A DNA stretch of 64,000 nt. Origin: Halpernia frigidisoli (lineage in GTDB: Bacteria; Bacteroidota; Bacteroidia; Flavobacteriales; Weeksellaceae). The stretch spans positions 972,411 through 1,036,410 of the forward strand of contig NZ_FOQT01000001.1 of NCBI RefSeq assembly GCF_900113805.1, given 5' to 3'. Positions 21,567 through 36,425 of the stretch are shown one piece after another (position 1 is the stretch's first letter; every line of letters begins with the position of its first letter). The translations under genes and the position numbers were made by a program. A model generated the notes under the pieces. The model was not told the origin of the DNA and did no database searches. It saw only the letters and a program-made list of their open reading frames with translations.

Positions 21567-22673
21567 ATGATATTTAAATTAGAAACGAATGATGAGGATG
21601 AACGCGCAATTTATATCACCGGAAATTTTAATAAATGGAATCCGAAAGAAGAGCAGTTTAAATTGTATAAAAACGAAGATTTTATTTATATCATTGAAAT
21701 TGAAAACCATCTTTTGCCAGAAAATATTGAATATAAATTTACAAAAGGAGGTTGGGAAAATGTAGAAATTGATAAGTTCGATAAAATTCATCCTAATAGA
21801 AAAATTCATAGATCTCTTGAACAAACGAAAGATTTTGTAGAAAAATGGCGTTACAACTGGGGACCTTTTAAAGAAGAATTTTTCCCCATCGTAGAAATTA
21901 TCTCTGAAGAATTTTATATTCCGCAGCTCGATAAATACCGAAAAATCTGGGCGCTTCTACCCCATGATTATTATAATTCTGAGAAAAACTATCCCGTTCT
22001 CTATCTTCAGGATGCACAAAATTTGTTTAATGAAGGCGCAGAGTTTGGAAATTGGGAGATTGATAAAAAATTATCACTTTTAGCAGAATATGGTCGCGGC
22101 GATCTCATTGTTATTGCCATTGAACACGGGAAAGAAGAAAGAATAAAAGAATATATTTTTGATAACGACGCCATAATAAAAAATGCAGAAGGCAAAAAAT
22201 ATATTCGTTTTATCACCGACACTTTAAAACCATTTGTTGATGCAAAATACCGAACCAAAAAAGACCGTGAAAATACCGGAATTGGCGGCAGTTCTTTAGG
22301 CGCATTAATAAGTATTTACAGCGGTTTTCTTTATCCCGAAGTCTATTCAAAACTGATGCTTTTTTCGCCTTCGCTTTGGGTAGAACCGCAGAATAATTTT
22401 CCGATGTTAAATTTTGGTAATCCCTACAAAATGAAAGTTTATCTTTATGGCGGTGATAAAGAAGGTTCAAAAATGGTCAACAGAATAAAGAAATTTTCAA
22501 AATCTTTAGAAAAATGGGAATTAGAAAAAATTTACGATTTTGAGACTATAGTTAGAATAAATCCGGAAGGTAAACACCAGGAATTTTTTTGGTCTCAGGA
22601 ATTCCCCCGCGCTGTAGAATGGTTGTATTATGACTCACTTGAAGACCCAACAAAAACAATAAAAAATGATTAA
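21567..22673 (+). CDS. Esterase with N-terminal glycogen-binding-like domain
   Basis: This 368-residue protein joins two domains. Residues 1-70 resemble the CBM48/AMPK-beta glycogen-binding fold (IYITGNFNKWNPKEEQF at 15-31, then YKFTKGGWENVE). Residues about 110-355 are an alpha/beta hydrolase of the putative esterase (esterase D) family with the nucleophile elbow GGSSLGA (Ser243), the VIAIEHG strand and a probable catalytic His337 in EGKHQEFF. There is no signal peptide, so it is likely cytoplasmic. It is divergent from glgB, which supports a link to glycogen, and overlaps the next gene by 8 bases. Substrate is unknown. Confidence 0.8.
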   Translation: MIFKLETNDEDERAIYITGNFNKWNPKEEQFKLYKNEDFIYIIEIENHLLPENIEYKFTKGGWENVEIDKFDKIHPNRKIHRSLEQTKDFVEKWRYNWGPFKEEFFPIVEIISEEFYIPQLDKYRKIWALLPHDYYNSEKNYPVLYLQDAQNLFNEGAEFGNWEIDKKLSLLAEYGRGDLIVIAIEHGKEERIKEYIFDNDAIIKNAEGKKYIRFITDTLKPFVDAKYRTKKDRENTGIGGSSLGALISIYSGFLYPEVYSKLMLFSPSLWVEPQNNFPMLNFGNPYKMKVYLYGGDKEGSKMVNRIKKFSKSLEKWELEKIYDFETIVRINPEGKHQEFFWSQEFPRAVEWLYYDSLEDPTKTIKND

Positions 22674-24084
22674 AATAAGTTCAGATTCAGATAACAGTTC
22701 TAACCAAATATTTCATTTTATTAATGAAAAATCTTGGGAAAGTGAGCAAAAAAATTATCCAAAAAAGACAAGCAATTTTTTTAATGGTAAGAAAAAAGAA
22801 GTTTTTGTAATCTCAAACGATGATTTTACAACTTATTTAATTGGTTTTGGTACAATCTCAGAAGATATCGATTTTCAGGAAATTGGAAATCATTTTGCAC
22901 AATCTCAAAAGAAAAATCTTCAATCGGTTTCGACAGAAATTGTTGTAGAAAATTTAAATTTTAACCAAATTTCAGAATTGGTTAAGGGATTATTTCTAGG
23001 GACTTACAATTATCCATTTGATTCATCTCACGCTTTTTGGCAGGAAGAATTTTCTTTAAATATTAAAAATTTAAATGAAAAAGAAATTGAAGAGCTAATA
23101 TCTAAAACTGATTCACTTTGCAACGGGCAATTTGCCTGCATGGACTGGCTGAATAAACCCGCGAATTATAAAAAAGCACCAATTATTTCAGATTTTCTTA
23201 GGAATTTAGCTAAAAAATACGATTTAGAATTAGAAATTTTAAATACTGAAGGTTGCGCAGAAAGAGGTCTAAACGCATATCTAGCCGTTAATCAAGGGAG
23301 TTCGGAAGAAGCTGCTTTTTGTATTTTAAAATATTCGGGTGAAAATGCCAAAAAGACAATTGGCCTGGTTGGAAAATGTGTCATTTTTGACACAGGTGGA
23401 ATTTCTATTAAAGGAAACGCAAATTTGCACTATATGAAAAGTGACATGGGTGGCGCAACTGCAGTTATCGGAACTTTAATAACAGCTGCAGAGAGAAAAT
23501 TACCGGTCAATATTATTGCGATTTTACCAATAACAGACAACGCAGTTTCGAACACTTCCTATTTGCCAAGTGACGTAATTACAGCTTATAACGGCAAAAC
23601 AATCGAAGTAATTGATACTGATGCAGAAGGCAGAATGACTTTGGCAGACGGACTTTCCTACTTGTCGAAAAATTTTAAAACTGATATTCTGATCGATTTG
23701 GCAACTCTTACAGGAAGTGCAGTGCGAATTCTCGGAAGTCACGCGGGCGCACTTTTTGGAAATAATGATGATTTAATTAAAAAATTAGAAATTTCTGGAA
23801 ATTTGACCAATCAAAAACTTTGGAATTTGCCAATGTGGGACGTTTGGAATGAAATGCTTACATCGGATGTTGCAGATTTAAAAAACCTTCCTGCTTCACC
23901 AGTTGGAGGTTGCATCACGGCAGCAAAATTTTTAGAACATTTTATTGAAGGTCATGAAACCTGGGCGCATCTCGATATTGCTGGCGTTGCTTTTGGAAAA
24001 GTCAATTATGCGAAAGAATATGCAGCAACCGGTTATGGCGTTCAACTAATTATTGATTTTTTAGAAAAGTATTGTAAAAATTAA
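22666..24084 (+). CDS. M17 leucyl aminopeptidase family protein
   Basis: This 472-residue cytosolic dimetal aminopeptidase removes N-terminal residues from peptides. The C-terminal catalytic domain has FDTGGISIKG (241-250, Lys249), MKSDMGGA (Asp260) and DTDAEGRMTLAD (317-328), all ligands and active-site residues of the M17 family. The N-terminal domain (1-140) is poorly conserved, as is usual. Its start overlaps the end of the esterase gene by 8 bases, so the two are translationally coupled. A 109-base gap follows before the ligase cluster. It may serve general peptide turnover or act on peptides made or degraded next door; the second idea is only positional. Confidence 0.9.
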   Translation: MIKISSDSDNSSNQIFHFINEKSWESEQKNYPKKTSNFFNGKKKEVFVISNDDFTTYLIGFGTISEDIDFQEIGNHFAQSQKKNLQSVSTEIVVENLNFNQISELVKGLFLGTYNYPFDSSHAFWQEEFSLNIKNLNEKEIEELISKTDSLCNGQFACMDWLNKPANYKKAPIISDFLRNLAKKYDLELEILNTEGCAERGLNAYLAVNQGSSEEAAFCILKYSGENAKKTIGLVGKCVIFDTGGISIKGNANLHYMKSDMGGATAVIGTLITAAERKLPVNIIAILPITDNAVSNTSYLPSDVITAYNGKTIEVIDTDAEGRMTLADGLSYLSKNFKTDILIDLATLTGSAVRILGSHAGALFGNNDDLIKKLEISGNLTNQKLWNLPMWDVWNEMLTSDVADLKNLPASPVGGCITAAKFLEHFIEGHETWAHLDIAGVAFGKVNYAKEYAATGYGVQLIIDFLEKYCKN

Positions 24085-24140
24085 CATTTTAATAAATCCT
24101 CATAAACATTGAATTTTCTTTAAATTTCACCTTCATTTAG

Positions 24141-24171
24141 TTGTTTTTTCAAATTAAAAACTCTAAAATTG
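24141..24171 (+). promoter_or_regulatory. Putative promoter of the ligase cluster
   Basis: TTG (24141-24143), a 20-base spacer and TAAAATTG (24164-24171), one mismatch from TAnnTTTG, lie just upstream of the ATG at 24194. The spacing fits the Bacteroidota consensus of 19-21 bases. Confidence 0.45.
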
Positions 24172-24193
24172 TAAAGGTTTAAAAATTGAGAGA

Positions 24194-25399
24194 ATGGAGA
24201 AGATTTTTGTATGCATTTCCTGCTACTATAAAGGCGGTGAATTTTTGGAGGAATTAAAAAGATTAGGAAATAAGGTAATATTAATTACATCAGATAATTT
24301 AAAAGATAAAAACTGGCCCTGGCAATCGATCGACGAGGTTTATTACATGTCGGAAACAAAAGCCGCAACCTGGAATTTAGAGCATCTTACCCAAGGTTTT
24401 AGTCACTTGATGAAAACCAGCCAAATTGACGCGGTTATTGCCTTGGATGATTATGATGTTGAAAAAGCGGCGATGCTTCGGGAAACGTTTAGAATTTCCG
24501 GAATGGGACAAACAACCCATCGTTATTTCCGCGATAAACTGGCGATGAGACAGAAAGCGAAAGATTCAAACATCAATGTTCCAGAGTTTTCTTCTGTTTT
24601 TAATGATCAAAAATTAGCAGATTTCTGCGATAATAATCCCGCACCTTGGGTTTTAAAACCACGTTCTGAAGCTTCTGCGAGCGGTATTCAAAAAATTAAT
24701 TCTAAACAGCAACTTTGGGAATCTTTAGAAAAATTAGGCGAAGAACGCTATTTATTTTTACTGGAAACCTTTAAACCTGGAAAAGTTTTCCACGTGGATA
24801 GTTTGGTTTACAACAAAGAAATAATTTTTACTTCCTGCGCTCAATACCTTTCTCCGCCAATGAATGTTGCTCATGAAGGCGGCGTTTTTCGAACCAAAAC
24901 TTTGGGTAGATATTCTGATATTTATAAGAAGCTGGAAGCAGAAAATAAAAAAGTTTTAGAGAGTTTTGGTTTAGTTTATGGTGCTACTCACACAGAATTT
25001 ATTTTGGGTGATGATGGCAAACTTTATTTCCTGGAAACTTCTTCCAGAGTTGGTGGCGCACATATTCCCGAATTGATAAAAGCCTCAAGTGGTATTAATA
25101 TTTGGGACGAATGGGCGAAAATAGAAACTTCACTTTTGCGAAATGAAAAATATGAATTACCCAAACCAACTGGTTTCTATTCAGGTTTATTAGTTTGTTT
25201 GGCTAAAGATAAACATCCGGACACCAAAGAATTTGAATGTGAAGAAGTTTACAAATTTGTAGATATTGATTACCACATCGCGATTGTTTATAAATCTGAC
25301 AAAGAGGAAATTATTCAACAGAAACTTGATGAAGCAACGGATAAAATAACACACTCTATTTTAAATATTATTCCGCCGCAAAACAGGCCAACAAGTTAG
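24194..25399 (+). CDS. ATP-grasp ligase 1
   Basis: This 401-residue protein is a predicted carboxylate-amine (or thiol) ligase of the ATP-grasp superfamily, which activates a carboxylate as an acyl-phosphate. The N-terminal part (1-110) is a Rossmann-like pre-ATP-grasp domain. WVLKPRSEASASGIQ (152-166) is the ATP-binding strand and loop. THTEFILGDDGKLYFLE (265-281) followed by RVGGAH supplies the usual acidic metal ligands, with Glu268 and Glu281 as candidates. It resembles carbamoyl phosphate synthase-like and biotin carboxylase-like ATP-grasps more than D-Ala ligases. It is first of six same-strand genes; its TAG stop is also the first unit of a heptamer repeat. Substrates are unknown. Confidence 0.85.
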   Translation: MEKIFVCISCYYKGGEFLEELKRLGNKVILITSDNLKDKNWPWQSIDEVYYMSETKAATWNLEHLTQGFSHLMKTSQIDAVIALDDYDVEKAAMLRETFRISGMGQTTHRYFRDKLAMRQKAKDSNINVPEFSSVFNDQKLADFCDNNPAPWVLKPRSEASASGIQKINSKQQLWESLEKLGEERYLFLLETFKPGKVFHVDSLVYNKEIIFTSCAQYLSPPMNVAHEGGVFRTKTLGRYSDIYKKLEAENKKVLESFGLVYGATHTEFILGDDGKLYFLETSSRVGGAHIPELIKASSGINIWDEWAKIETSLLRNEKYELPKPTGFYSGLLVCLAKDKHPDTKEFECEEVYKFVDIDYHIAIVYKSDKEEIIQQKLDEATDKITHSILNIIPPQNRPTS

Positions 25400-25448
25400 T
25401 TGATAGTTGATAGTTGATAGTTGATAGTTGATAGTTGATAGTTGATAG
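25397..25448. repeat. Heptamer microsatellite TAGTTGA, seven units
   Basis: Seven perfect TAGTTGA units occupy 25397-25445, with a partial TAG after them. The first TAG (25397-25399) is the stop codon of ATP-grasp ligase 1. On the plus strand each unit contains TAG and TGA and shifts frame by one, so all three frames close. The complementary strand is open in all frames. It lies in the 107-base gap inside the ligase cluster, the widest gap there. Two further units occur at 39998-40011. Confidence 0.95.
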
Positions 25449-25506
25449 AAATTACATTTTTTAACTGAATAATTCTTAGTTGAAATTTAAAAAAAATTAG
25501 AAAAAT

Positions 25507-26220
25507 ATGCCACAAATACAACATACAGATTATTATTCTCATGTTTTAGGTAAAAGTTTAAAACTGGAAGTCACTGGTCATTACGGTTATCCGATCATTA
25601 TGTTTCCAACTTCGAAGGGTTCTTACACTCAAAATGCCGATTTTCATTTAAATGGAAGCATCGCAAATTTAGTAGATCAAGGGAAAGTAAAACTTTACAA
25701 TATTGAAACTATTGATGAAATAAGCCTTTACAATAAATCCATTGGACCAGATGAAAGAATTAGAAGATATGAATTATATGTTCAGTTTTTGATTCAGGAA
25801 TTTGTTCCTTATATTCAAAAAGTTCATCAAACACATAGAGTTGCCGTTGCAGGCGCAAGTTTCGGCGGTTATCATGCTTCGAATTTTGCCTTTAGATTTC
25901 CCGATGTTGTCTCGCATTTACTCTGTCTTTCTGGTGCTTTTACGATCAGAAATTTTATGGACGGGTACGAAAGTGATAAAGTTTATTTCAACTGTCCGCG
26001 TGAGTTTGTTAAAAACGATGAAGCCTTTAAATACAAACACATGAATATTGTTTTAAGCACTTCCGATCAGGATATTTGCTTAGAACAAACCCGTGAAATG
26101 GCAGGAATTCTTGCCTCAAAAGGAATTTCTCACTGGTATGATGAACAAAAATGGATCAACCATGACTGGCCGCTTTGGCGTATGGTTTTCCCTAAATTTA
26201 TAGGAAGATTTTTTGGCTAA
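25507..26220 (+). CDS. Alpha/beta hydrolase, putative esterase family
   Basis: This 237-residue cytoplasmic protein is of the esterase D-like (PF00756) type. The nucleophile elbow is AVAGASFGGYHA (Ser118), the acid is in LSTSDQD (Asp187 or Asp189) and the base in INHDWPLW (His219). It has no signal peptide. It stands between two ATP-grasp genes in the cluster 24194-30451, so it may release, trim or acyl-transfer the product rather than act on general esters; that is inference from position. A second esterase-type gene (21567) lies nearby but is not closely similar outside the fold. Confidence 0.85.
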   Translation: MPQIQHTDYYSHVLGKSLKLEVTGHYGYPIIMFPTSKGSYTQNADFHLNGSIANLVDQGKVKLYNIETIDEISLYNKSIGPDERIRRYELYVQFLIQEFVPYIQKVHQTHRVAVAGASFGGYHASNFAFRFPDVVSHLLCLSGAFTIRNFMDGYESDKVYFNCPREFVKNDEAFKYKHMNIVLSTSDQDICLEQTREMAGILASKGISHWYDEQKWINHDWPLWRMVFPKFIGRFFG

Positions 26221-26258
26221 AATTTAAATAACATTAAACAAAAAAAATAAAACATATT

Positions 26259-27233
26259 ATGGCGAAAAAAGCAGATAAAACAGTAAAAAAAGTCGGAATT
26301 TTATTCGGAATGGAAGATACATTTCCCTGGGCTTTTATTGATAAAGTGAATGAAATGGGAAATGGCGAAATTATCGCAGAACCCGTTATGATCGATAAAT
26401 TGGAACAAGGTGCAGATTCCGGTTATGCTGTCATTATTGACAGGATTTCACAGGATGTTCCATTTTACCGTGCTTATTTAAAAAATGCAGCAGTTAGTGG
26501 AACTTACGTCATCAACAATCCATTTTGGTGGAGCGCAGATGAAAAATTTCTGAATAATGCTTTAATGACAAAACTTGGAATTCCACTTCCAAATACAGTT
26601 TTGTTGCCTTCAAATGATCGACCGACAAACACTACCGAAACGTCTTTTAGAAATTTAAAATTCCCACACGATTGGGATTATATTTTCGATTATATTGGTT
26701 TTCCAGCGTACATGAAACCACACGATGGCGGCGGTTGGAGAAATGTTTATCGCGTAACAAGTCCGGAAGATATGTGGGAAAAATTGCGCGAAACTGAGCA
26801 ATTAGTAATGATGCTTCAGGAAGAAATTATTTTTGATGATTATTACCGCGTTTATTGCTTAGGTAAAAAATATGTTCACATTATGCCTTATGAACCGAGA
26901 AATGCGCCGCATTTAAGATACGTAACAGAATCTAAATACGAAGGTGAAAAACTAGAAAGCATTTTAAAAGTCATTCATGATTACGCGATTAAAATGAATG
27001 AGGCTTTAGGTTATGATTTTAACACCGTAGAATTTGCCGTCAAAGATGGCATTCCTTATGCGATTGACTTTTGTAATCCTGCACCAGATGCAGACAGAAA
27101 TGCTGTTGGCGAAGAAAATTTTGCCTGGATCGTAGAGCATTCTGCAAAATTAGCCATAGAAAAAGCGAAAGAATATGTTCCTGGAAAAGTGAATATTTCC
27201 TGGGGAAATTTCGTGAAAGATTCTGCTATATAA
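26259..27233 (+). CDS. ATP-grasp ligase 2
   Basis: This 324-residue predicted ATP-grasp enzyme is preceded by a lysine-rich N-terminus. Residues 12-110 form a pre-ATP-grasp domain (VGILFGMEDTFPWAFIDKV). The ATP-binding strand and glycine-rich loop are PAYMKPHDGGGWRNVY (149-164). NTVEFAVKDGIPYAID (255-270) followed by FCNPAPDADRN carries the metal ligands, with Glu258 and Asp270 as candidates. The metal-site sequence is clearly different from ligase 1, so the two are not recent duplicates. It lies 38 bases after the esterase and 42 before the YbdK-type gene. Substrate unknown. Confidence 0.82.
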   Translation: MAKKADKTVKKVGILFGMEDTFPWAFIDKVNEMGNGEIIAEPVMIDKLEQGADSGYAVIIDRISQDVPFYRAYLKNAAVSGTYVINNPFWWSADEKFLNNALMTKLGIPLPNTVLLPSNDRPTNTTETSFRNLKFPHDWDYIFDYIGFPAYMKPHDGGGWRNVYRVTSPEDMWEKLRETEQLVMMLQEEIIFDDYYRVYCLGKKYVHIMPYEPRNAPHLRYVTESKYEGEKLESILKVIHDYAIKMNEALGYDFNTVEFAVKDGIPYAIDFCNPAPDADRNAVGEENFAWIVEHSAKLAIEKAKEYVPGKVNISWGNFVKDSAI

Positions 27234-27275
27234 TTTAGTGGAAAAATGCGGTAAATTAATTTAAATAGTACACAA

Positions 27276-28379
27276 ATGAGTCATACGTTCACAATCGGTA
27301 TTGAAGAGGAATATCAAATAATTGATGTTGAAAGCCGCGATCTGGTTTCGCACGTTTCAAAAATTATAGAAGGCGGAAAAGCAGTTCTCAGTGAAAACCT
27401 GAAACATGAAATGCATGAATCTATGGTGGAAATGGAAACCGGAATTTGTCAGAATATTAAAGAAGCACGCGCGGAATTAACAGATTTGCGTCGACATTTG
27501 ATTAAAACAGCGCACGATCAAAACCTTCGTGTTGCAGGTGGCGGAACACATCCTTTTTCTAACTGGGAAACCAACACAATCACAAAACAGGAACGCTATG
27601 ACAAAATTGTAGATGACATGGGCGATGTTGCGCGTGGAAATTTAATTTTCGGTCTCCATGTTCATATCGGTATTCCCAATCGTGAAGAAGGCGTAAAAAT
27701 ACAAAATGTAATGCGTTATTTTTTGCCTCACGTTTACGCTCTTTCTACAAATTCACCCTTTTGGATCGGTAGAAATACCGGTTTTAAATCTTATAGACAG
27801 GAAATTTTTGTTAAATTTCCACGTACTGGAATTCCAAGTTTTTTTAATAATGCACAGGAATTTGACAGTTATGTTGATCTTTTGGTTAAAACAGGAACAA
27901 TCGACAACGCGAAAAAAATATGGTGGGATCTTCGAGTTCACCCATTTTACCCAACGATTGAATTTAGAATTTGTGACATGCCAATGCGACTGGACGAAAC
28001 CGTTTGTCTTGCTGCAATTATGCAATGTTTAGTGGCAAAAATTTATAAACTTCATCAGCAAAATTTAAGTTTCAGATCATACAGAAGATTACTTTTAAAC
28101 GAAAATAAATGGCGCGCTGCAAAAGACGGTATTCATGCAAAATTAATTGATTTTGGTAAAGAAGAACAATTTCCTTTTGAACATTTACTCGAAGAATTAT
28201 TAGGATTTATTGATGATGTTGTGGATGATTTAGATTGTAGGAAAGAAGTGGAATATGCGTGGGAAATTATGAAAAATGGCAGTGGCGCAGATCGTCAACT
28301 GGCAGTTTATAAAGAAACAGAAAGTTTACAGGCCGTGGTAGATTACATGATCTCCGAGACAGAATACGGCATTTTTTAA
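27276..28379 (+). CDS. YbdK/GCS2-type carboxylate-amine ligase
   Basis: This 367-residue protein is of the glutamate-cysteine ligase 2 family (COG2170, YbdK), a glutamine-synthetase fold. In vitro YbdK has weak glutamate-cysteine ligase activity. It opens with TIGIEEEYQIID (6-17), where the glutamates are metal ligands, and has AGGGTHPF (87-94), GLHVHIG (126-132) and NSPFWIGRNTG (159-169). Length fits the family (about 370). Here it is embedded among ATP-grasp ligases and a glutaminase-type protein, which suggests a dedicated peptide or amide product rather than glutathione synthesis. Substrate specificity cannot be read from sequence. Confidence 0.9.
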   Translation: MSHTFTIGIEEEYQIIDVESRDLVSHVSKIIEGGKAVLSENLKHEMHESMVEMETGICQNIKEARAELTDLRRHLIKTAHDQNLRVAGGGTHPFSNWETNTITKQERYDKIVDDMGDVARGNLIFGLHVHIGIPNREEGVKIQNVMRYFLPHVYALSTNSPFWIGRNTGFKSYRQEIFVKFPRTGIPSFFNNAQEFDSYVDLLVKTGTIDNAKKIWWDLRVHPFYPTIEFRICDMPMRLDETVCLAAIMQCLVAKIYKLHQQNLSFRSYRRLLLNENKWRAAKDGIHAKLIDFGKEEQFPFEHLLEELLGFIDDVVDDLDCRKEVEYAWEIMKNGSGADRQLAVYKETESLQAVVDYMISETEYGIF

Positions 28380-28426
28380 ACAAAATTTTAAATTTTCGTA
28401 CTTTTACAGCCCAAAAATATGGAATT

Positions 28427-29263
28427 ATGAAAGAGATAAGAATTGCTTTGTTAGATATGAATTATAATCATATTAATCAAGGCATGAGAAATATTAGAGA
28501 AATTTCTAAGCGTTTCAAAGATAACAATGAAAACAGCGTTACTATACAATGCTTTGATGTACGTTATAAAAATGAGATACCAGATATTAATGATTTTGAT
28601 ATTTTTCTTTCCTCTGGCGGTCCGGGAAATCCACATAAAGAAGGTTACGATTGGGAACCGGTTTACGCTGATTTTTTAGATCAACTTTGGGAACATAACA
28701 AAAATAATTCTCAGAAAAAATTTGCTTTTTTAATTTGTCATTCCTTCCAAATTGCCAGTATTCATTGGGGTTTAGGAAATATTTGTAAAAGAAATTCATA
28801 CTCTTTTGGCGTGATGCCTATTCATAAGTCAGACGAGGGAAAAGATTATTATCTATTAGAAAATCTACCGGAACCGTTCTATGCCGTAGATTCCCGCGCT
28901 TACCAATTTATCGAACCAAATACGGACCGCATGGAAGAATTAGGAATGGAAATAATGGCTTTAGAAAAAATGCGACCACACATTCACAAAGAACGCGCTG
29001 TAATGGCAATTAAATTTTCAGAAGAGATTTTTGGTACGCAATTTCATCCGGAGGCAGATCCGTTTGGGATGATGGAAAATTTAAAAGATGAAACCAATCG
29101 AAAAGCCATGATCGATAATTACGGTATGGAAAAATATCTGGAAACCATCGACAGAATGAACGATGACGATAAAATTATTTTGACACAAGCACAAATTTTA
29201 CCAAGGTTTTTAAATTTTGCGGAATCTCAAATTTTAAAAGAAGTTCGACTAGTTAATCATTAA
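28427..29263 (+). CDS. Class I glutamine amidotransferase-like protein
   Basis: This 278-residue protein has the Cys-His-Glu triad of the class I GATase fold: SSGGPGNP (62-69, oxyanion region), LICHSFQIA (Cys104) and GTQFHPEADP (His207, Glu209). Such proteins either hydrolyse glutamine to feed ammonia to a synthase or hydrolyse gamma-glutamyl bonds (as PuuD does). No synthase domain is attached. It follows the YbdK-type gene by 47 bases and precedes the next gene by only 3, so those two are probably translationally coupled. Its partner might be the ligase at 29267; that is inference. Confidence 0.87.
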   Translation: MKEIRIALLDMNYNHINQGMRNIREISKRFKDNNENSVTIQCFDVRYKNEIPDINDFDIFLSSGGPGNPHKEGYDWEPVYADFLDQLWEHNKNNSQKKFAFLICHSFQIASIHWGLGNICKRNSYSFGVMPIHKSDEGKDYYLLENLPEPFYAVDSRAYQFIEPNTDRMEELGMEIMALEKMRPHIHKERAVMAIKFSEEIFGTQFHPEADPFGMMENLKDETNRKAMIDNYGMEKYLETIDRMNDDDKIILTQAQILPRFLNFAESQILKEVRLVNH

Positions 29264-29266
29264 ATT

Positions 29267-30451
29267 ATGATAAAAAAATACCGCGATTTATTTAATGATG
29301 ATTTTTCGTTTGATAAATATAAAGATGTCATTTCTGATCTAAAAGAAAAAAGTGGCATCGAACCACAATTTCGTGTATCTGAAAGTCCAATTTTTTTGAC
29401 AAAAGATTTTAAGGATAAATTAAAAGACGCTTGCGAAAGTATCATTACCCAAATAAAAGACATTCCTCAGGAAGAACTTTCTAAAGCTGTTCCGGCAAAT
29501 TGTAATGTTCCAAATGATACAAAACAACCACATTTTTTCACGATAGATTTTGGAATTTGCGAAAATAAAACTGGCGAAATAGAGCCTCAGCTTATTGAAC
29601 TACAAGCTTTCCCGACACTTTACACTTTTCAGAAAGAACTTGAAAATACACTTTGTGATGTTTATCCTTTTTTAAATGAATTAAAATCTAAATTATCTAA
29701 TGAAGATTATTACGCCCAATTAAAAAAATTAATAATTGGCGACGAAAATCCGGAAAATGTGGTCCTTTTAGAAATATATCCTGACAAACAAAAAACCAAT
29801 ATTGATTTTTATTTAACAGAAAAAAAATTAGGTGTAAAACCAGTTTGTATTACAAAGGTTAAGAAGCAGGGAAAAAAATTATATTACGAAAAAGATGGAA
29901 ATTTAGTTCAAATAAAAAGAATTTACAATCGTGTTATTTTTGATGAATTGGACCGTTTTCCTGATTTAAAATTAGAGTTTAATTTTCGGGAAGAATTGGA
30001 TGTAGAATGGGTGACGCACCCGAATTGGTTTTTTAAAATTTCAAAATATTTGTTGCCAAAACTGCAGCATGAATTTGTCCCAAAAAGTTACTTTTTAAAT
30101 GAATTTCCTGAAAGTGAAAATCTAAAAGATTTCGTTTTAAAACCTTTATTTTCTTTTGCAGGAAGTGGCGTAAATCTCGATCCAACTAAAGAAATTACTG
30201 GTGCGATTTTAGATAAAGAAAATTTTATTTTACAAAGAAAAGTCGTTTATGCGCCACTTTTTTTAGATCCAAATGGTGAATTCTCAAAGGCAGAAATTCG
30301 ATTACTTTACATTTGGCAGGAAGATGAAGAACGTCCGATTTTAATGGAATATTTGGTAAGAATGACAAAAGTAGCGATGGTAAATGTTGATTTTAATAAA
30401 AAAGACGCCATCTGGATCGGTGGATCTACAGCGTTTTTTGCTGAAGATTAG
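29267..30451 (+). CDS. Uncharacterised protein, probably ATP-grasp-like
   Basis: I do not recognise a named family for this 394-residue protein. The C-terminal half contains FVLKPLFSFAGSGVNLD (289-305), which looks like an ATP-grasp strand and glycine-rich loop, and ENFILQRKVVYAPLF (318-332) like the adenine-side hinge. The central part has IYNRVIFDELD (219-229). The N-terminal stretch FFTIDFGICENKTGEIEPQLIELQAFP (positions 90-116 in outline) resembles an acid-rich metal site, as in permuted glutathionylspermidine-synthase-type ATP-grasps. It ends the cluster and begins 3 bases after the GATase stop. It is predicted to be a ligase; structure prediction would settle the fold. Confidence 0.6.
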   Translation: MIKKYRDLFNDDFSFDKYKDVISDLKEKSGIEPQFRVSESPIFLTKDFKDKLKDACESIITQIKDIPQEELSKAVPANCNVPNDTKQPHFFTIDFGICENKTGEIEPQLIELQAFPTLYTFQKELENTLCDVYPFLNELKSKLSNEDYYAQLKKLIIGDENPENVVLLEIYPDKQKTNIDFYLTEKKLGVKPVCITKVKKQGKKLYYEKDGNLVQIKRIYNRVIFDELDRFPDLKLEFNFREELDVEWVTHPNWFFKISKYLLPKLQHEFVPKSYFLNEFPESENLKDFVLKPLFSFAGSGVNLDPTKEITGAILDKENFILQRKVVYAPLFLDPNGEFSKAEIRLLYIWQEDEERPILMEYLVRMTKVAMVNVDFNKKDAIWIGGSTAFFAED

Positions 30452-30493
30452 AATTAAAATTTTTTAATTAATTTTACAAGACATTATTTTATC

Positions 30494-30718
30494 ATGGAAA
30501 TATTAGTTCACCCGAGTTCTTCTGAAGAGCAAAATTTGCTTGAAAGTTTACTGAAGAAAATGAAAATTTCTTTTGAAAGAAAGGAAACAAGTCAAAAAAT
30601 AATAGTTTCGGACGCGGAAATGGAATCTATTTCAAGAGGCTTAGAACAAGCCAATAATGGTGGAATTGTATCAAGTGTTGATGTTCACAACAAAGCAAAA
30701 CTCTTGTGCGTAAAGTAA
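30494..30718 (+). CDS. Putative type II antitoxin
   Basis: This 74-residue acidic-to-neutral protein has a helix-rich central part (EEQNLLESLLKKMKISFE at 11-28) and a C-terminal VSSVDVHNKAKLLCVK. It overlaps the downstream RelE/ParE-like gene by 13 bases, the classic antitoxin-toxin arrangement. I do not recognise a specific antitoxin family, and no DNA-binding motif is clear. The call rests mainly on size, overlap and partner. Confidence 0.65.
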   Translation: MEILVHPSSSEEQNLLESLLKKMKISFERKETSQKIIVSDAEMESISRGLEQANNGGIVSSVDVHNKAKLLCVK

Positions 30719-31005
30719 ATTGGACGATTGAAGCAGAAGAACAATATTTGAAAACTATTGCTTTTTGGATAGAAAATAACAAATCGACTAGTTATTCTGA
30801 AAAAATAATTGAAGAAGTAATTTATACGGAATCTCTATTAATTGAAAATCCTTTGATTGGAATTATTGTTGAAAACACAAATAATGAAGTGCGAAGAGTT
30901 TTAGTCTTAAAAAACTATTCACTTTATTACCGTTTAGATTCAGATGTTATTGAAATTATTTCTTTTTGGGCAAATAAAATGAATCCTAAAGATTTAAACA
31001 TATAA
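30706..31005 (+). CDS. RelE/ParE-family toxin
   Basis: This 99-residue protein has the RelE/ParE layout: KVNWTIEAEEQYLKTIAFW at the N-terminus, a middle helix with the pattern SLLIENPLIG, and the C-terminal VRRVLVLKNYSLYYRL followed by IEIISFW. ParE-type members poison gyrase and RelE-type members cleave mRNA on the ribosome; the sequence does not separate these. The start is GTG (30706-30708) inside the antitoxin gene. The pair lies between the ligase cluster and cphA, followed by a strong hairpin. Confidence 0.82.
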   Translation: MRKVNWTIEAEEQYLKTIAFWIENNKSTSYSEKIIEEVIYTESLLIENPLIGIIVENTNNEVRRVLVLKNYSLYYRLDSDVIEIISFWANKMNPKDLNI

Positions 31006-31050
31006 AATTATCTGGAATTTCTAATTATTTATCGAATAGTAATAAAAAAT

Positions 31051-31072
31051 AAGCCGCTGTAATAAGCGGCTT
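31051..31072. terminator. Bidirectional terminator between the toxin gene and cphA
   Basis: AAGCCGCT (31051-31058) pairs with AGCGGCTT (31065-31072), a GC-rich stem with a 6-base loop and a T run on the plus strand. T-rich sequence also follows on the minus strand. It separates the convergent toxin-antitoxin genes and cphA. Confidence 0.85.
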
Positions 31073-31076
31073 TTTC

Positions 31077-33707
31077 TTAATTAATATTCTGAGTTTCCTG
31101 CATTTCCTTCAGTTGGTATTGTTGCACCAATTCAATTGCATTTGAAACTACATCACTTAAAGCGGTAATGTAAGTTCCTTCTTCTGCCATACTCATCGCG
31201 TGTTTCAGCGCTTCAATCTCTTTTGGAATGATCTCATAAGTGACGTCTTTATCCGCAGAGTTTATACCGTCAATGATCAATCCGTTAATTTCTTCCTCTG
31301 AACGTCCACGCAAATGTTTTTCATTTCTGATGATGATATAGTCAAACATTCTGCCTGCAATTTTTCCACATTCGCGAATATCTTCGTCTCTCCTATCGCC
31401 TACACCGGAAATAATTCCGATCTTTTTTGTGGCCTCTACATATTTTAAATAATCTTCAATGGCTTCATAGCCTGCAGGATTATGGGCGAAATCAATTAAA
31501 ACTTTAAATTTTTTGAAATTAAATACATTCAGTCTTCCGGGCGTAAGATCGGCACTTGGAATAAATGTTTTTAAAGCCAAAGAAATATCTTCTATTTTAA
31601 AACCATAAAGAAAACAAGACAAAGTCGCTGCTAAAACATTGGATATCATAAATTTAGCCTTTCCTTCCATCGTGATCGGCACTAAAATAGCACGCTCAAT
31701 TCTGATCTTCCAGTCGCCTTTTTTAATGGTAATAAAACCTTCTTCATAAACACAGGTTGTTCTTCCCTCTTTCGCCGCTTTTCTAATATGAGGATTTTTT
31801 TCATCTAAACTAAAAAGTGCTACTTTACAGTGAAGATCGGTCGCCAGCTTCATTGAATATTCATCGTCAGCGTTCAAAACTGCCCAGCCATTTTTCTTAA
31901 TACTGTCTAAAACCACGCGTTTTACTCGCGTCAGATCTTTTAGGGAATGAATATCATTTAAACCCAAATGATCTTCTTTGATATTCGTTAAAACACCAAT
32001 ATCACAAGAGTTAAAACCTAAACCTGATCGTAAAATTCCACCTCTTGCAGATTCTAAAACAGCAAATTCGACAGTTGGATCTTTTAGAACAAATTCTGCC
32101 GAAAGTGGACCTGTTGTGTCGCCTTTTGTCAGCATTGTATTTTGAATATAAATACCGTCAGACGTTGTAAAACCTACTCTGTAACCATTATTTTTGACGA
32201 TATGGGAGATAATTCTAGTCGTGGTGGTTTTTCCGTTTGTTCCGGTAACTGCAATAATTGGAATTCTGAATTCCTTGCCCTGCGGATAAAGCATGTCCAC
32301 AACCGGCGCTGCTACGTTTCTTGGCAATCCTTCGGACGGCGCCAAATGCATTCTAAATCCTGGAGCAGCATTTACTTCTAAAACCGCACCACCACTGTCT
32401 TTTAAAGGTTGAGTAAGATTTTCTGCCATAATATCAATTCCGCAAACATCCAGGCCGATAATTCTGGAAATTCTTTCCGCCATCATCACATTTTCCGGGT
32501 GAACCATTTCTGTTACATCAATGGAAGTTCCGCCTGTAGAAAGGTTTGCAGTCGATTTTAGGTAAACAATTTCACCTTTTTGAGGAATTGTGTCTAAAGT
32601 ATAGTTTAATTTTTCTAAAAGTTCATTGGTATCTTTATCAACCAGAATTTCAGTTAAAACATTTTCGTGACCGTAACCTCTTCGTGGATCGGTATTTTCC
32701 TGATCGATCAGCTGCTGAATATTTTTTTGTCCGTCACCTGCTACATGCGCTGGAACGCGTCTCGCAGCAGCAACCATTTTATGATCTATTACTAAAATTC
32801 TAAAATCGTAACCAGTAATATATTTTTCAACGATTACTTTTTTGCCGTATTGTTGAGCGTGTTCCAATCCTAATTTTGCAACTTCAAAGTCAGTTACATT
32901 TATGGATGAACCTTTTCCGTGATTTCCATCCAATGGTTTTAGAACAACTGGATAACCAATTTTTCTTATTACATCTGCTAAACCTTCTTCGTCAGTCACT
33001 AAGTCACCGGAAGGAACGGGAATTGCGGCGTCACCCAACATTATTTTGGTTAATTCTTTATTACATGCGATATCGACGGCAATTGAACTGGTTAAACCGG
33101 TAATGGTTGCCTGAAAACGCTGCTGATTTTTACCATAACCCAATTGTACTAAAGAATTTTTCCCAAGTCTGATCCATGGAATATTTCTTGAAACAGCTTC
33201 TTCAACGATGCTTCCGGTTGATGGACCAAGTCTTTCTTTTTCTCTTATTTCCCTTAATTTTTGAATGCACGCTTCAATATCGTAATATCTGTTTTCAATT
33301 AAAGCTCTGGCCATCTCAACAGATTCTTCCGCAGCAAAAACGCCGGCATTTGCTTCCAAATAACTAAAAACAACATTATAAACGCCTTTGGTTTTTGTTT
33401 CTCTGGTTCTTCCAAATCCGGTATCCATTCCCGCTAAAGTCTGAATTTCTAAAGCCACATGCTCAATTACATGTCCCATCCACGTTCCCATTTCGATACG
33501 GTGAAAAAGTCCGCCTTCAACACCTTCGGAACAACGATGTGATATCAGCGAAGGAATTAAAAGTTCAATTCTCTCGCGAAAACCTTCTATTTTATTTGTT
33601 GGAAGTTCTTCTAGCTCCTCAAGATCTAAACGCATCTGAATAAGTTTAGTTCTTCTTATACTCCAGATATTTGGTCCTTTTAAAACCTGTATTTTCTCAA
33701 TTTTCAT
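31077..33707 (-). CDS. cphA: Cyanophycin synthetase
   Basis: CphA polymerises aspartate and arginine into cyanophycin, a nitrogen reserve, using two ATP-dependent sites. The 876-residue length matches cyanobacterial CphA (about 870). An N-terminal domain (1-160) is followed by an ATP-grasp domain (about 165-475) with VLKPLDGNHGKGSSINV (255-271) and EVNAAPGFRMHLAPSEG (444-460). A Mur-ligase-like domain follows with the P-loop TGTNGKTTTTR (488-498) and later DFAHNPAGYEA. All motifs look intact. It is divergent from cphB across a 172-base promoter region. Whether the side chain is arginine only, or another basic residue, is not visible. Confidence 0.95.
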   Translation of the reverse strand: MKIEKIQVLKGPNIWSIRRTKLIQMRLDLEELEELPTNKIEGFRERIELLIPSLISHRCSEGVEGGLFHRIEMGTWMGHVIEHVALEIQTLAGMDTGFGRTRETKTKGVYNVVFSYLEANAGVFAAEESVEMARALIENRYYDIEACIQKLREIREKERLGPSTGSIVEEAVSRNIPWIRLGKNSLVQLGYGKNQQRFQATITGLTSSIAVDIACNKELTKIMLGDAAIPVPSGDLVTDEEGLADVIRKIGYPVVLKPLDGNHGKGSSINVTDFEVAKLGLEHAQQYGKKVIVEKYITGYDFRILVIDHKMVAAARRVPAHVAGDGQKNIQQLIDQENTDPRRGYGHENVLTEILVDKDTNELLEKLNYTLDTIPQKGEIVYLKSTANLSTGGTSIDVTEMVHPENVMMAERISRIIGLDVCGIDIMAENLTQPLKDSGGAVLEVNAAPGFRMHLAPSEGLPRNVAAPVVDMLYPQGKEFRIPIIAVTGTNGKTTTTRIISHIVKNNGYRVGFTTSDGIYIQNTMLTKGDTTGPLSAEFVLKDPTVEFAVLESARGGILRSGLGFNSCDIGVLTNIKEDHLGLNDIHSLKDLTRVKRVVLDSIKKNGWAVLNADDEYSMKLATDLHCKVALFSLDEKNPHIRKAAKEGRTTCVYEEGFITIKKGDWKIRIERAILVPITMEGKAKFMISNVLAATLSCFLYGFKIEDISLALKTFIPSADLTPGRLNVFNFKKFKVLIDFAHNPAGYEAIEDYLKYVEATKKIGIISGVGDRRDEDIRECGKIAGRMFDYIIIRNEKHLRGRSEEEINGLIIDGINSADKDVTYEIIPKEIEALKHAMSMAEEGTYITALSDVVSNAIELVQQYQLKEMQETQNIN

Positions 33708-33750
33708 ATGTTATAGATCTTTATTAATGTGTGCAAAAGCGAATATTAGT

Positions 33751-33758
33751 CAAATATA
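33751..33758 (-). promoter_or_regulatory. Putative -7 box for cphA
   Basis: On the minus strand this reads TATATTTG, matching TAnnTTTG, 43 bases upstream of the cphA ATG. It shares the 172-base region 33708-33879 with the cphB promoter, so both directions may be co-regulated. Confidence 0.5.
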
Positions 33759-33866
33759 GTATAAAGATGTAAATAATTAAATAGTATAGATTTAAAATTA
33801 ATGGTAAAAGATCAAATTATCTAAAAATATCTCCTTTTAAAAATTAAGCCTTTATCTTATTTTAAT

Positions 33867-33874
33867 TAAATTTG
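33867..33874 (+). promoter_or_regulatory. Putative -7 box for cphB, suggesting a leaderless transcript
   Basis: TAAATTTG matches TAnnTTTG and ends only 5 bases before the cphB ATG at 33880. With transcription starting about 5-7 bases after the box, the mRNA would begin at or next to the start codon. Confidence 0.5.
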
Positions 33875-33879
33875 CACCC

Positions 33880-34767
33880 ATGGATCCAAAGGGAAAATTA
33901 ATTGTAATCGGTGGTGCTGTTAACAAAGGTAGTTTTGCCGAGACAGATTTCGATCAAAATGTAGAAAAAAACCTTAATTTTTTCGAACGTGGTATTTTAA
34001 GAAAGATCATTGACGAATCGAAATCAAAAAATGATTCCGTAATTGAAATCCTCGCTACAGCTTCACAAATCCCACAAATTGTTGGCCCGGAGTACAAAAA
34101 AGCCTTTGAATATCTTGGCGCTAAAAATGTCAATATTTTAGATATTATCAACCGCGAACAAGCAAACAGCGATGACGTAGTTGAACGAATAAAAAAAGCC
34201 GATGTCGTGATGTTTACTGGCGGCGATCAGTTGAGGCTAACTTCCATTTTAGGCGGAACACGTTTTCACGAGGCTTTACTTGATAAATACGAAAATGAAG
34301 ATTTTATTTATGCCGGAACTTCTGCAGGAGCAGCGGCTGCTTCCGAAAATATGATTTATCAGGGCTCCAGTCAGGAAGCGCTTTTAAAAGGGGAAATAAA
34401 AACTACACAAGGTTTAGGTTTTATTGATGATGTAATTATTGACACGCATTTTGTGCAGCGTGGAAGGATCGGCAGATTATTTCAATCTGTGGTCAATAAT
34501 CCACGTACTTTGGGAATTGGCTTAGGGGAAGATACTGGCTTATTTATTTTTAATGGAATTATGACAACAGTTGGTTCCGGTTTGGTAATTATTGTGGATG
34601 GAAGATTTATTAAGGATACTAACTTAACAAATATCGAGCTTGGACAACCAATTTCTATTGATAATTTAACTGTCCATGTTATGTCTATGAACGATACATT
34701 TGATCTTAAGACAAAAGATTTGACAATTAATAATTCTCAGTATTCACCAATTCCACAGGTTAGATAA
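33880..34767 (+). CDS. cphB: Cyanophycinase
   Basis: CphB is a peptidase of family S51 that cuts cyanophycin to beta-Asp-Arg dipeptides. The 295-residue protein has the nucleophile motif GTSAGAAAAS (146-155, Ser148), VMFTGGDQLRLTS (110-122) and IDTHFVQRGRIGRL, which are hallmarks of CphB rather than the related dipeptidase E. There is no signal peptide, consistent with internal mobilisation of the polymer. It is divergent from cphA and followed by an SDR-like gene and isoaspartyl peptidase, giving a degradation pathway to free amino acids. Confidence 0.94.
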   Translation: MDPKGKLIVIGGAVNKGSFAETDFDQNVEKNLNFFERGILRKIIDESKSKNDSVIEILATASQIPQIVGPEYKKAFEYLGAKNVNILDIINREQANSDDVVERIKKADVVMFTGGDQLRLTSILGGTRFHEALLDKYENEDFIYAGTSAGAAAASENMIYQGSSQEALLKGEIKTTQGLGFIDDVIIDTHFVQRGRIGRLFQSVVNNPRTLGIGLGEDTGLFIFNGIMTTVGSGLVIIVDGRFIKDTNLTNIELGQPISIDNLTVHVMSMNDTFDLKTKDLTINNSQYSPIPQVR

Positions 34768-34798
34768 TCTTTTCCTTTAAATTTTCTATCTTAGAACC

Positions 34799-35572
34799 AT
34801 GGAAAAACTAGGTATAATTGGCTGCGGTTGGCTCGGAGAAAAAATTGCAAAATCTGCCATTTACAAGTATAAAATCTTTTCTACCACAACTTCCGAAGAA
34901 AAATTAACCACTTTAAAAAATCAAAATTTTAATCCTTATTTGGTTAAATTTTCTGATCATGAAGACTTAGATTATGAAAATCTATTTTCTAATGTTGACA
35001 TTATAATAATTACAATTCCTTTTTCTCAACGAACGCCAGTTACAGTTTTGAAACAAAGATTTAAAAATATTATCAAGTTTATTGGTGATTTTAAAGGTCA
35101 GCTTTTTCTTTGCAGTTCCACAGGAATTTATCCGCAAGTTGACGAAATAGTTACAGAAAATTCCATCGATGAAAATTTATTAAATCAAAATATCTGGACC
35201 ATTGAAAAATTAATGAAAAGTACATTTCCACAGATCAATATTTTAAGATTTGGCGGATTAATGGGGGCTGACAGATTTTTTTCTAAATATTACCAAAATA
35301 AAGAAATTGCCGAACCTAATCAAGTCGTCAATCACACGCATTTTGAAGATATTTGTAAAGTTTTTTTAAAATTAATTGATTTAAAAATTAATGGTGAACC
35401 TTTTAATATTGTCTCGCCCGAACATCCTACAAAAATTGAAGTTTTTAATTGTCAAACAAAAAATATTTGCAAAAAATCTGATGGAGAAAAATCTGGAAAA
35501 TGTGTTTCTTCTGAAAAATTGATCAACAAAATAAATTATAAATTCATTCATCCAAATCCAGCAAAATTTTAA
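34799..35572 (+). CDS. Rossmann-fold NAD(P)-binding protein, YeeZ-like
   Basis: This 257-residue protein resembles the extended/atypical SDR family seen in YeeZ. It has the nucleotide-binding motif IIGCGWLGEKIA (6-17), a VDIIIITIPF strand near 70-79, and LFLCSSTGIYPQ (about 102-113) with the SSTGIY motif typical of this group. The classical active-site YxxxK is not evident. A role in cyanophycin use is not suggested by the sequence; it is placed between cphB and the isoaspartyl peptidase, 7 bases from the latter, so it is cotranscribed. A near-consensus box TATCTTAG precedes its ATG. Confidence 0.78.
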   Translation: MEKLGIIGCGWLGEKIAKSAIYKYKIFSTTTSEEKLTTLKNQNFNPYLVKFSDHEDLDYENLFSNVDIIIITIPFSQRTPVTVLKQRFKNIIKFIGDFKGQLFLCSSTGIYPQVDEIVTENSIDENLLNQNIWTIEKLMKSTFPQINILRFGGLMGADRFFSKYYQNKEIAEPNQVVNHTHFEDICKVFLKLIDLKINGEPFNIVSPEHPTKIEVFNCQTKNICKKSDGEKSGKCVSSEKLINKINYKFIHPNPAKF

Positions 35573-35579
35573 AATATTT

Positions 35580-36425
35580 ATGAGTAAAATAATTATTCAC
35601 GGCGGTTTCTTTTCTGAAAGCGACCAAAGCCATGAAATAAAAGAAGCAAAACAGGAATCTTTAAAGAAAAATGCCAAACTTGCCTATGAATTTTTAGAAA
35701 ATCACACAGCGGCAGAAACAGTTGTTTACGCAGTTTCACTTCTTGAAAATGATGAACTTTATAATGCAGGAACCGGTTCGCAGATTCAAAGTGATGGCGT
35801 GATCAGAATGAGCGCTTCTATAATGGATGGCGATTCTCAAAAATTTTCAGGTGTTATTAATATTGAAAATGTAAAAAATCCAATTTTAGTTGCTGAGAAA
35901 TTAATGGCAACCAACGACCGTGTTTTGGGAGATATTGGTGCAAAAAAATACGCTGCAGAGAATGGTTTTAAAGACTACTCCACCGAAATTCCGCAGCGTA
36001 GAAAAGAATATCTGGCAAAAGTTGAAAGTTTGGGAAAAGGAACTGTTGGTTGCGTAGCTTTAGATAAAAATGGAAAAATTGCTGCGGCAACTTCCACCGG
36101 CGGAAAAGGATTTGAAATTCCCGGACGAATTTCTGATTCTGCAACAGTGGCAGGAAATTTTGCCAATGAATTTTGTGGTGTGAGTTGCACCGGCGTGGGC
36201 GAAGATATTGTTAGCAATGCAACTGCGACTAAAATTGTAACGCGTGTTTCTGACGGTTTTAAAATAAATGAAGCATTTGACAAAACATTTACCGAGTTAA
36301 AAAAAATCGATGGTTTTGCCGGCGCGATAGCGATTGATTCAAAAGGAAATATCTTTCATCAAAATTCTCATCCGACAATGGTATTTGCCAGTTTTGATGG
36401 GGAAAATTTTGAAGTTTTCAATTAA
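35580..36425 (+). CDS. iaaA: Isoaspartyl peptidase/L-asparaginase
   Basis: This is an N-terminal-nucleophile hydrolase of the plant-type asparaginase family, which cleaves beta-aspartyl dipeptides and is known to hydrolyse the beta-Asp-Arg products of cyanophycinase. The 281-residue precursor is expected to self-cleave before Thr155 in GKGTVGCVALD (152-162). PGRISDSAT (181-189) is the conserved substrate-binding stretch, and AGTGSQIQSDG (63-73) lies in the alpha chain. Its position 7 bases after the SDR-like gene and downstream of cphB supports the cyanophycin role. Confidence 0.93.
   Translation: MSKIIIHGGFFSESDQSHEIKEAKQESLKKNAKLAYEFLENHTAAETVVYAVSLLENDELYNAGTGSQIQSDGVIRMSASIMDGDSQKFSGVINIENVKNPILVAEKLMATNDRVLGDIGAKKYAAENGFKDYSTEIPQRRKEYLAKVESLGKGTVGCVALDKNGKIAAATSTGGKGFEIPGRISDSATVAGNFANEFCGVSCTGVGEDIVSNATATKIVTRVSDGFKINEAFDKTFTELKKIDGFAGAIAIDSKGNIFHQNSHPTMVFASFDGENFEVFN

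Follow-up and report, generated by a model that had tools for sequence, protein, structure and literature searches.

A stretch of 64,000 nucleotides from Halpernia frigidisoli (Weeksellaceae; contig NZ_FOQT01000001.1, positions 972,411 to 1,036,410), which we call the window, carries a tight run of six genes for predicted ligases and hydrolases. They lie at 24194-30451 on the + strand and are labelled G1 to G6 in order; genomes are designated by G and three digits, loci by L and three digits. An initial annotation, made from the letters of the window alone, had read the six as a single pathway to an amide or peptide. Its coordinates, its strand and the ends of its open reading frames (ORFs) are confirmed, with gaps between successive genes of 107, 38, 42, 47 and 3 bases. 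The pathway itself needs redrawing. The predicted amide-forming ligases do occur together, as proposed, but the six genes are not equal partners: the core is G3 and a ligase of the glutathionylspermidine synthetase (GspS) type, represented here by G6. The genome carrying the window is 3.02 Mb in size. Judged by G6, its nearest named relatives are Chryseobacterium and other Weeksellaceae, and the G6 proteins of two genomes of the same family are 64 and 71% identical to that encoded here.

The marker gene of the system is G3 (26259..27233, +). Its product has no Pfam match at E 0.01. It matches rimK_fam (TIGR00768) at E 1.5e-7, and the score of 31.1 bits lies far below the cut-off of 143.4, which leaves it outside the RimK family proper. 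A predicted model (pLDDT, the predicted local distance difference test score, 72.8) aligns to RimK, LysX, ArgX and Ddl with Z scores of 14.6-17.9, the highest being that of RimK 5zct over 257 residues. G3 thus shares the fold of these ATP-grasp ligases but forms a family of its own, of about 320 amino acids, that travels with a GspS-type ligase. RimK and LysX/ArgX are its best structural matches, and graspetide ligases are listed as well, one of them from Chryseobacterium (7mgv, Z 15.3). Could the ligases modify a protein or a ribosomal peptide, by RimK-like tagging or as in a graspetide-like ribosomally synthesized and post-translationally modified peptide, with no free metabolite at all? We consider this improbable. 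PurK and D-Ala-D-Ala ligases match G3 almost as well as RimK does (Z about 15-16), and no family of ORFs of 70-150 amino acids recurs in more than two of 40 G6 operons, ORFs below 70 amino acids lying outside the search. GCS2 and GspS-type ligases, moreover, usually act on small molecules.

G6 (29267..30451, +) had been suspected to be an ATP-grasp protein, and structure prediction indeed gives it a full-length ATP-grasp fold. Sequence comparison says little: G6 has no Pfam match at E 0.01 and no NCBIfam match, and a profile of 39 relatives (A1) finds a single PDB entry, YgiC, weakly at E 0.014. The AlphaFold2 model of the 394-amino-acid protein (pLDDT 85.6) recovers the putative glutathionylspermidine synthase 3n6x in Foldseek at E 1.2e-12. 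It aligns to YgiC 7uk8 with a Z score of 21.8 over 341 residues (model residues 1-393), to YjfC with 21.2 and to E. coli GspS with about 20 up to 21.1. Cp1B (9cjn) aligns at Z 19.4 and the eukaryotic glutathione synthetases at 15.2-20.0, over most or all of the length. The remaining rows reach 5.3 at most, except for a gamma-glutamylcysteine-synthetase-like entry at 9.8. Sequence identity to the best structural matches is 9-16%; all 39 relatives share D94, E111 and further polar residues. By its predicted structure, G6 belongs to the GspS/YgiC/eukaryotic glutathione synthetase superfamily of ATP-grasp enzymes. It is not a glutathionylspermidine synthetase proper, since its alignment is limited to GspS residues 211-618 and the N-terminal amidase domain is absent from G6.

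The other four genes are easier to place. G1 (24194..25399, +) encodes an ATP-grasp protein like the L-amino acid ligases, the dipeptide-forming type. It matches Pfam ATP-grasp_3 with 31 bits (cut-off 23.2) and ATP-grasp_4 with 27.1 bits (cut-off 27), and it is related across its ATP-grasp core to two solved L-amino acid ligases, 4wd3 (E 1.4e-16) and 3vot (E 7.9e-9), enzymes of the RizA and BL00235 types. G2 (25507..26220, +) is an alpha/beta hydrolase of the Pfam Esterase type (PF00756, 36.9 bits, cut-off 22). Its putative catalytic residues, Ser118, Asp189 and His219, are conserved in 92, 100 and 92% of 25 sequences. G4 (27276..28379, +) is a carboxylate-amine ligase of the GCS2 type (223 bits, cut-off 21). 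It scores above both curated cut-offs of the YbdK family (TIGR02050, 313 bits against 176.4; PRK13515, 538 bits against 371), and in PDB it matches 1tt4 at E 4.5e-53 and YbdK 1r8g at E 4.4e-51. G5 (28427..29263, +) is a hydrolase with the fold of the class I glutamine amidotransferases (GATases; PF00117, 36.7 bits, cut-off 22.8). The complete Cys-His-Glu triad ascribed to it earlier is borne out: Cys104, His207 and Glu209 are invariant in 28 sequences.

Do these genes belong together? We searched a sample of 198 Bacteroidota genomes and took neighbourhoods from 80 stretches (L111-L190) of 61 of them; a wider scan of 84,980 species gave 214 confirmed close relatives, the best 80 of which serve below as the Weeksellaceae loci. 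In the phylum sample, G6 is found in 60 genomes (E limit <=1e-3), G3 in 72 (1e-30), G5 in 50 (1e-20), G1 in 43 (<=1e-40) and G4 in 62 (1e-60). Three weak G3 matches were left out (G007, G087 and G160; 32-41% identity, E 4.6e-45 to 1.1e-81). Every one of the 69 genomes with a G3 orthologue carries a partner ligase, either G6 (58 genomes) or a replacement described below (11 genomes). The reverse holds nearly as well: only G144 and G154 have G6 without G3. Altogether 71 genomes have G3 or G6, and we refer to these as system genomes. At the E limits used, G1 (43/43) and G5 (50/50) are confined to them, each G1 occurring with G3, and G4 nearly so (60/62). Of the 24 families that bear the system, half are mixed, with some of their genomes lacking it, and one ancestral block alone therefore does not explain the pattern. 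Neither G3 nor G6 has a match at E 1e-5 among 72,556 plasmids.

The genes are often, though not always, neighbours. G3 lies less than 4 kb from its partner ligase, on the same strand, in 46 of the 69 genomes, and the commonest core order across the phylum is G2-G3-G4-(G5)-G6. G1 is far more loosely placed: of its 43 genomes, only 10 have it less than 30 kb from G3. Genes that are scattered yet still present together argue for one pathway more strongly than conserved order does by itself. Two outcomes had been named beforehand as fatal to the idea of a joint pathway. The first was scattering of the genes with no conserved order; neighbourhood comparison finds the order conserved across many families. 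The second was assignment of each gene to a separate housekeeping pathway, and we reject it because the genes co-occur across the 198 genomes even where they are scattered.

What replaces G6 in the 11 genomes that lack it? In each, a ligase of about 450 amino acids occupies its place, less than 500 bases from both G3 and G5. The one member scanned with Pfam matches CP_ATPgrasp_2 (37.3 bits, cut-off 32), and a profile of four sequences finds 3n6x at E 7.6e-8. Compared directly, the G6 profile (A1) and the replacement-ligase profile (A4) match weakly (probability 17%, E 0.0014); the kinship of the two ligases is suggested instead by their separate matches to GspS-like structures and CP_ATPgrasp models. 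In the tree of G3, the four rows from ligase-swapped genomes form one clade (100/99 support), so a single swap explains them. G2 lies upstream in some of these loci, and a further esterase-like gene lies downstream in L167, L168 and L170. A twelfth genome with the replacement ligase, G137, also has G6, and neither adjoins G3.

The close association of G5 with whichever ligase is present invites a different explanation. In carbamoyl-phosphate synthetase, a class I GATase works together with ATP-grasp domains. G5 lies less than 500 bases from G6 in 26 of 39 genomes and from the replacement ligase in all 11, and its triad is intact. The two proteins might then be subunits of a glutamine-dependent amidotransferase, in which G5 would release ammonia from glutamine and G6 would use it to amidate a carboxylate, giving a primary amide. 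We regard this as unlikely. G5 is absent from 21 of the 71 system genomes, a peptidase-family gene stands at its place in two genomes, and the structural relatives of G6 use amines or amino acids rather than ammonia.

Glutathione offers another precedent. G6 resembles eukaryotic glutathione synthetase, G4 is a GCS2 protein and G2 is an esterase of PF00756, to which S-formylglutathione hydrolase also belongs. The cluster could thus be imagined to make a low-molecular-weight thiol, with G4 as gamma-glutamylcysteine ligase, G6 as a glutathione-synthetase-like enzyme and G2 as an S-acyl-thiol hydrolase. This is very improbable in our view. A search limited to one bacillithiol enzyme, BshC (BshA and BshB lay outside it), finds the gene in 196 of the 198 genomes, 70 of the 71 system genomes among them, which makes replacement of bacillithiol unlikely; we reject a replacement thiol on this ground, although an additional thiol is conceivable. 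G4 is also dispensable, being absent from 11 of the 71 system genomes, and we know of no place for G3 or G5 in glutathione synthesis.

These observations lead us to propose, with about an even chance of being right, that the genes encode a pathway, conserved in Bacteroidota, in which stand-alone ligases rather than nonribosomal peptide synthetases (NRPS) assemble a small peptide-amide. ATP-grasp and GCS2 enzymes use ATP to activate a carboxylate and then join it to an amine. The product is most likely a short, perhaps gamma-glutamyl, peptide capped with an amine by G6, in the way that YgiC and GspS use spermidine. The first step would fall to G4, which would couple a glutamate-like carboxylate with an amine or an amino acid. 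G3, together with G1 where present, would extend it by amino acids. G6 would activate the carboxylate of the peptide as an acyl phosphate and then attach the capping amine, a polyamine being the most plausible, in the manner of YgiC/YjfC and GspS. G5 probably trims or recycles the product through hydrolysis of an amide bond, and G2 may remove an ester or acyl group. We infer the order of these steps and all of the substrates. The combination of ligase and amidase would follow the logic of glutathionylspermidine.

Several points weigh against this proposal. Since 11 of the 71 system genomes lack G4 and 21 lack G5, neither a gamma-glutamyl start nor a G5 amidase step can be common to all of them. 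In 23 of the 69 genomes, G3 and its partner are farther apart than 4 kb or lie on separate contigs. If the three weak G3 matches are counted, G6 or its replacement accompanies G3 in 69 of 72 genomes, and the threshold that drops them was set after the data were seen. The association of G3 with a partner ligase (Fisher p about 1e-51, weak matches excluded) is calculated by a test whose p-values ignore the relatedness of the genomes. Confidence in the G3 model is middling. Nor does similarity of fold fix the amine or the acid used by G6: some of its best structural matches add glycine or beta-alanine. A table in PMC12506659 gives YgiC as lacking glutathionylspermidine synthase activity. On the other side, excerpts of PMC12568646 (Nat Chem Biol 2025) name YgiC and YjfC 'peptidylpolyamine synthetases', citing Pederick 2023 for peptide-spermidine ligase activity, and report that Cp1B condenses epoxysuccinate with amino acids.

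How does the set compare with known systems? G6 shares the whole-length ATP-grasp fold of E. coli GspS, YgiC and YjfC (Z about 20-22), and as with GspS a carboxylate-to-amine ligase is paired with a hydrolase. The differences are equally plain. G6 is only 10-16% identical to these enzymes and sits with RimK- and YbdK-type ligases, and the hydrolase, a domain of GspS, is here a separate protein of class I GATase fold. G4, a YbdK-family protein by both curated cut-offs, is here tied to a multi-ligase system, and G1, unlike the L-amino acid ligases it resembles, tracks G3 genome-wide. In amide pathways that do without NRPS, such as the E-64 cp1 cluster and dapdiamide (as excerpted from PMC12568646), stand-alone ligases likewise act in series, and Cp1B of the cp1 cluster shares the fold of G6. 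The oxygenase, decarboxylase and ANL-type amide synthetase of the cp1 cluster are not among the genes here, and E-64 is a specialised fungal product, whereas the present set occurs in 71 of 198 sampled Bacteroidota. Amide biosynthesis by stand-alone ligases is a known kind of system; the rule that pairs G3 with a GspS-type ligase appears to be new.

The amidoligase neighbourhood survey published by Iyer et al. in 2009 may list this Bacteroidetes ATP-grasp/GCS2 set. That survey is cited in the excerpted text of PMC4431377. Our literature search, confined to titles and the starts of abstracts and with most subscription papers outside its reach, found no description of the cluster. A more specific version of the proposal would comprise an undescribed peptidyl-amine metabolite, widespread in Bacteroidota and possibly a gamma-glutamyl-peptide-polyamine; a near-obligate pair of RimK- and GspS-type ligases; a dedicated recycling amidase of GATase fold; a functional parallel to glutathionylspermidine of independent origin; and one swap of the GspS-type ligase for a different ATP-grasp ligase of broadly similar kind. 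We advance this whole tentatively, as a possibility that we would not yet expect to hold in full.

The genes that vary around the core may bear on the hydrolytic step. In G093 and G055, where G5 was not found, a gene like those of M29 peptidases lies between G4 and G6, at the usual place of G5 (L123:8796-9824 and a 339-amino-acid ORF of L140, one of the two scanned with Pfam). An M42 peptidase gene stands ahead of G5-G6 in G150. Four loci, three of family f23 and one of family f26, have an amidohydrolase_3 gene ahead of G6 (one of them scanned with Pfam); L138 carries a related gene, placed between G4 and G5. Enzymes of the M29, M42 or amidohydrolase types may perhaps carry out such an amide hydrolysis in some lineages. 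Six f23 loci (L162, L163, L165, L179, L188 and L189; Pfam on L163) have a histidine-ammonia-lyase-type (HutH) gene of about 500-525 amino acids downstream of G3. The four G3 rows of such loci in the tree form one clade, so HutH may be a chance neighbour.

Transport is another variable. The initial annotation had seen no transporter, and a scan of ten genes of the window (21567-34767) finds none either, but relatives have symporters beside G6. In G125 a sodium:solute symporter and G6 share one open frame (L137:8137-10740), and in G133 a symporter 53% identical to it lies 18 bases upstream of G6 (L190:8984-10369). Their position hints at uptake of substrate or product.

Within the Weeksellaceae the block is longer than six genes. 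Two genes left out of the earlier account lie directly upstream, both on the + strand, and are part of the same conserved block in this family: a PF00756 esterase, EstA (21567..22673; Pfam Esterase 78.6 bits), and a peptidase of the M17, or leucyl aminopeptidase, type (22666..24084; PF00883, 338 bits), which overlap by 8 bases. The order EstA-M17-G1-G2-G3-G4-G5-G6 is kept on one strand in 78 of the 80 Weeksellaceae loci; of the other two, L034 yielded no EstA in the search and L081 lies on a cut contig. EstA is present in 78 and M17 in 79 of the 80. Among the operon lists of 40 loci around G6, the two occur only in L131 and L132, which are of the same family.

Sequence signals in the window add little. 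Between 21200 and 31200 there are 53 promoter-like matches (38.8 +/- 6.7 in shuffled sequence) and 13 terminator-like matches (6.3 +/- 2.4), counts that are little informative on operon structure. The gap between G1 and G2 holds an apparent 7-base tandem repeat (25400-25445), with the same promoter-like match at 25400, 25407 and 25414. Downstream of G6, at 30706-31005, lies an ORF like a ParE toxin (PF05016, 27.7 bits, cut-off 23; GTG start); none of the 80 Weeksellaceae loci yields a tblastn match to it at E 1e-20. Between this ORF and the next gene there is a terminator-like stem, at 31051-31072.

That gene opens a cyanophycin locus (31077-36425), also left out of the initial annotation, which starts about 0.6 kb downstream of G6. 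It comprises cyanophycin synthetase, CphA (31077..33707, -; TIGR02068, 1245.9 bits, cut-off 850), a neighbour outside the system; cyanophycinase, CphB (33880..34767, +; TIGR02069, 221.5 bits, cut-off 126.6); a Rossmann-like gene (34799-35572); and a gene of the asparaginase_2/isoaspartyl-peptidase type (35580..36425, +; PF01112, 254.8 bits, cut-off 27). The last is divergent, scoring 114 bits with PRK10226 against a cut-off of 567. It is present in 68 of the 72 Weeksellaceae loci that bear CphB, and three of the four misses have less than 600 bases after CphB. According to excerpts of PMC10206079, IadA/IaaA is found in only 22.1% of 86 Bacteroidota genomes with CphA1, the dipeptidase there being undiscovered; the gene at 35580-36425 is a candidate for that enzyme.

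Might the ligase cluster serve cyanophycin, making or recycling Asp-Arg-type dipeptides or primers? CphA follows G6 by 60-5772 bases (median 687) in 73 of the 80 Weeksellaceae loci. Of the remaining seven, five offer less than 1.4 kb of sequence beyond G6, and the other two, L034 and L103, lack CphA over 10 kb. M17 and the ligases could act on dipeptides, and the phylum sample shows a slight association of G5 with CphA (10 shared, p=0.016). CphA, found above its cut-off in 21 of the 198 genomes, is nevertheless not tied to G3 (10 shared, p=0.18), to G6 (9, p=0.14) or to G1 (4, p=0.71), and the cyanophycin locus has degradation genes of its own. We hold an accessory role in cyanophycin metabolism to be highly improbable and have rejected it, as the distribution of CphA over the 198 genomes does not follow that of the system.

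The pathway that we favour, in which stand-alone ligases build a small peptide-amide, matters beyond the locus in Halpernia. About a third of the sampled Bacteroidota (71/198) may make a metabolite that has not been described. The rule that pairs G3 with a GspS-type ligase also gives a likely function to the families of G3 and G6, neither of which is matched by a Pfam model.

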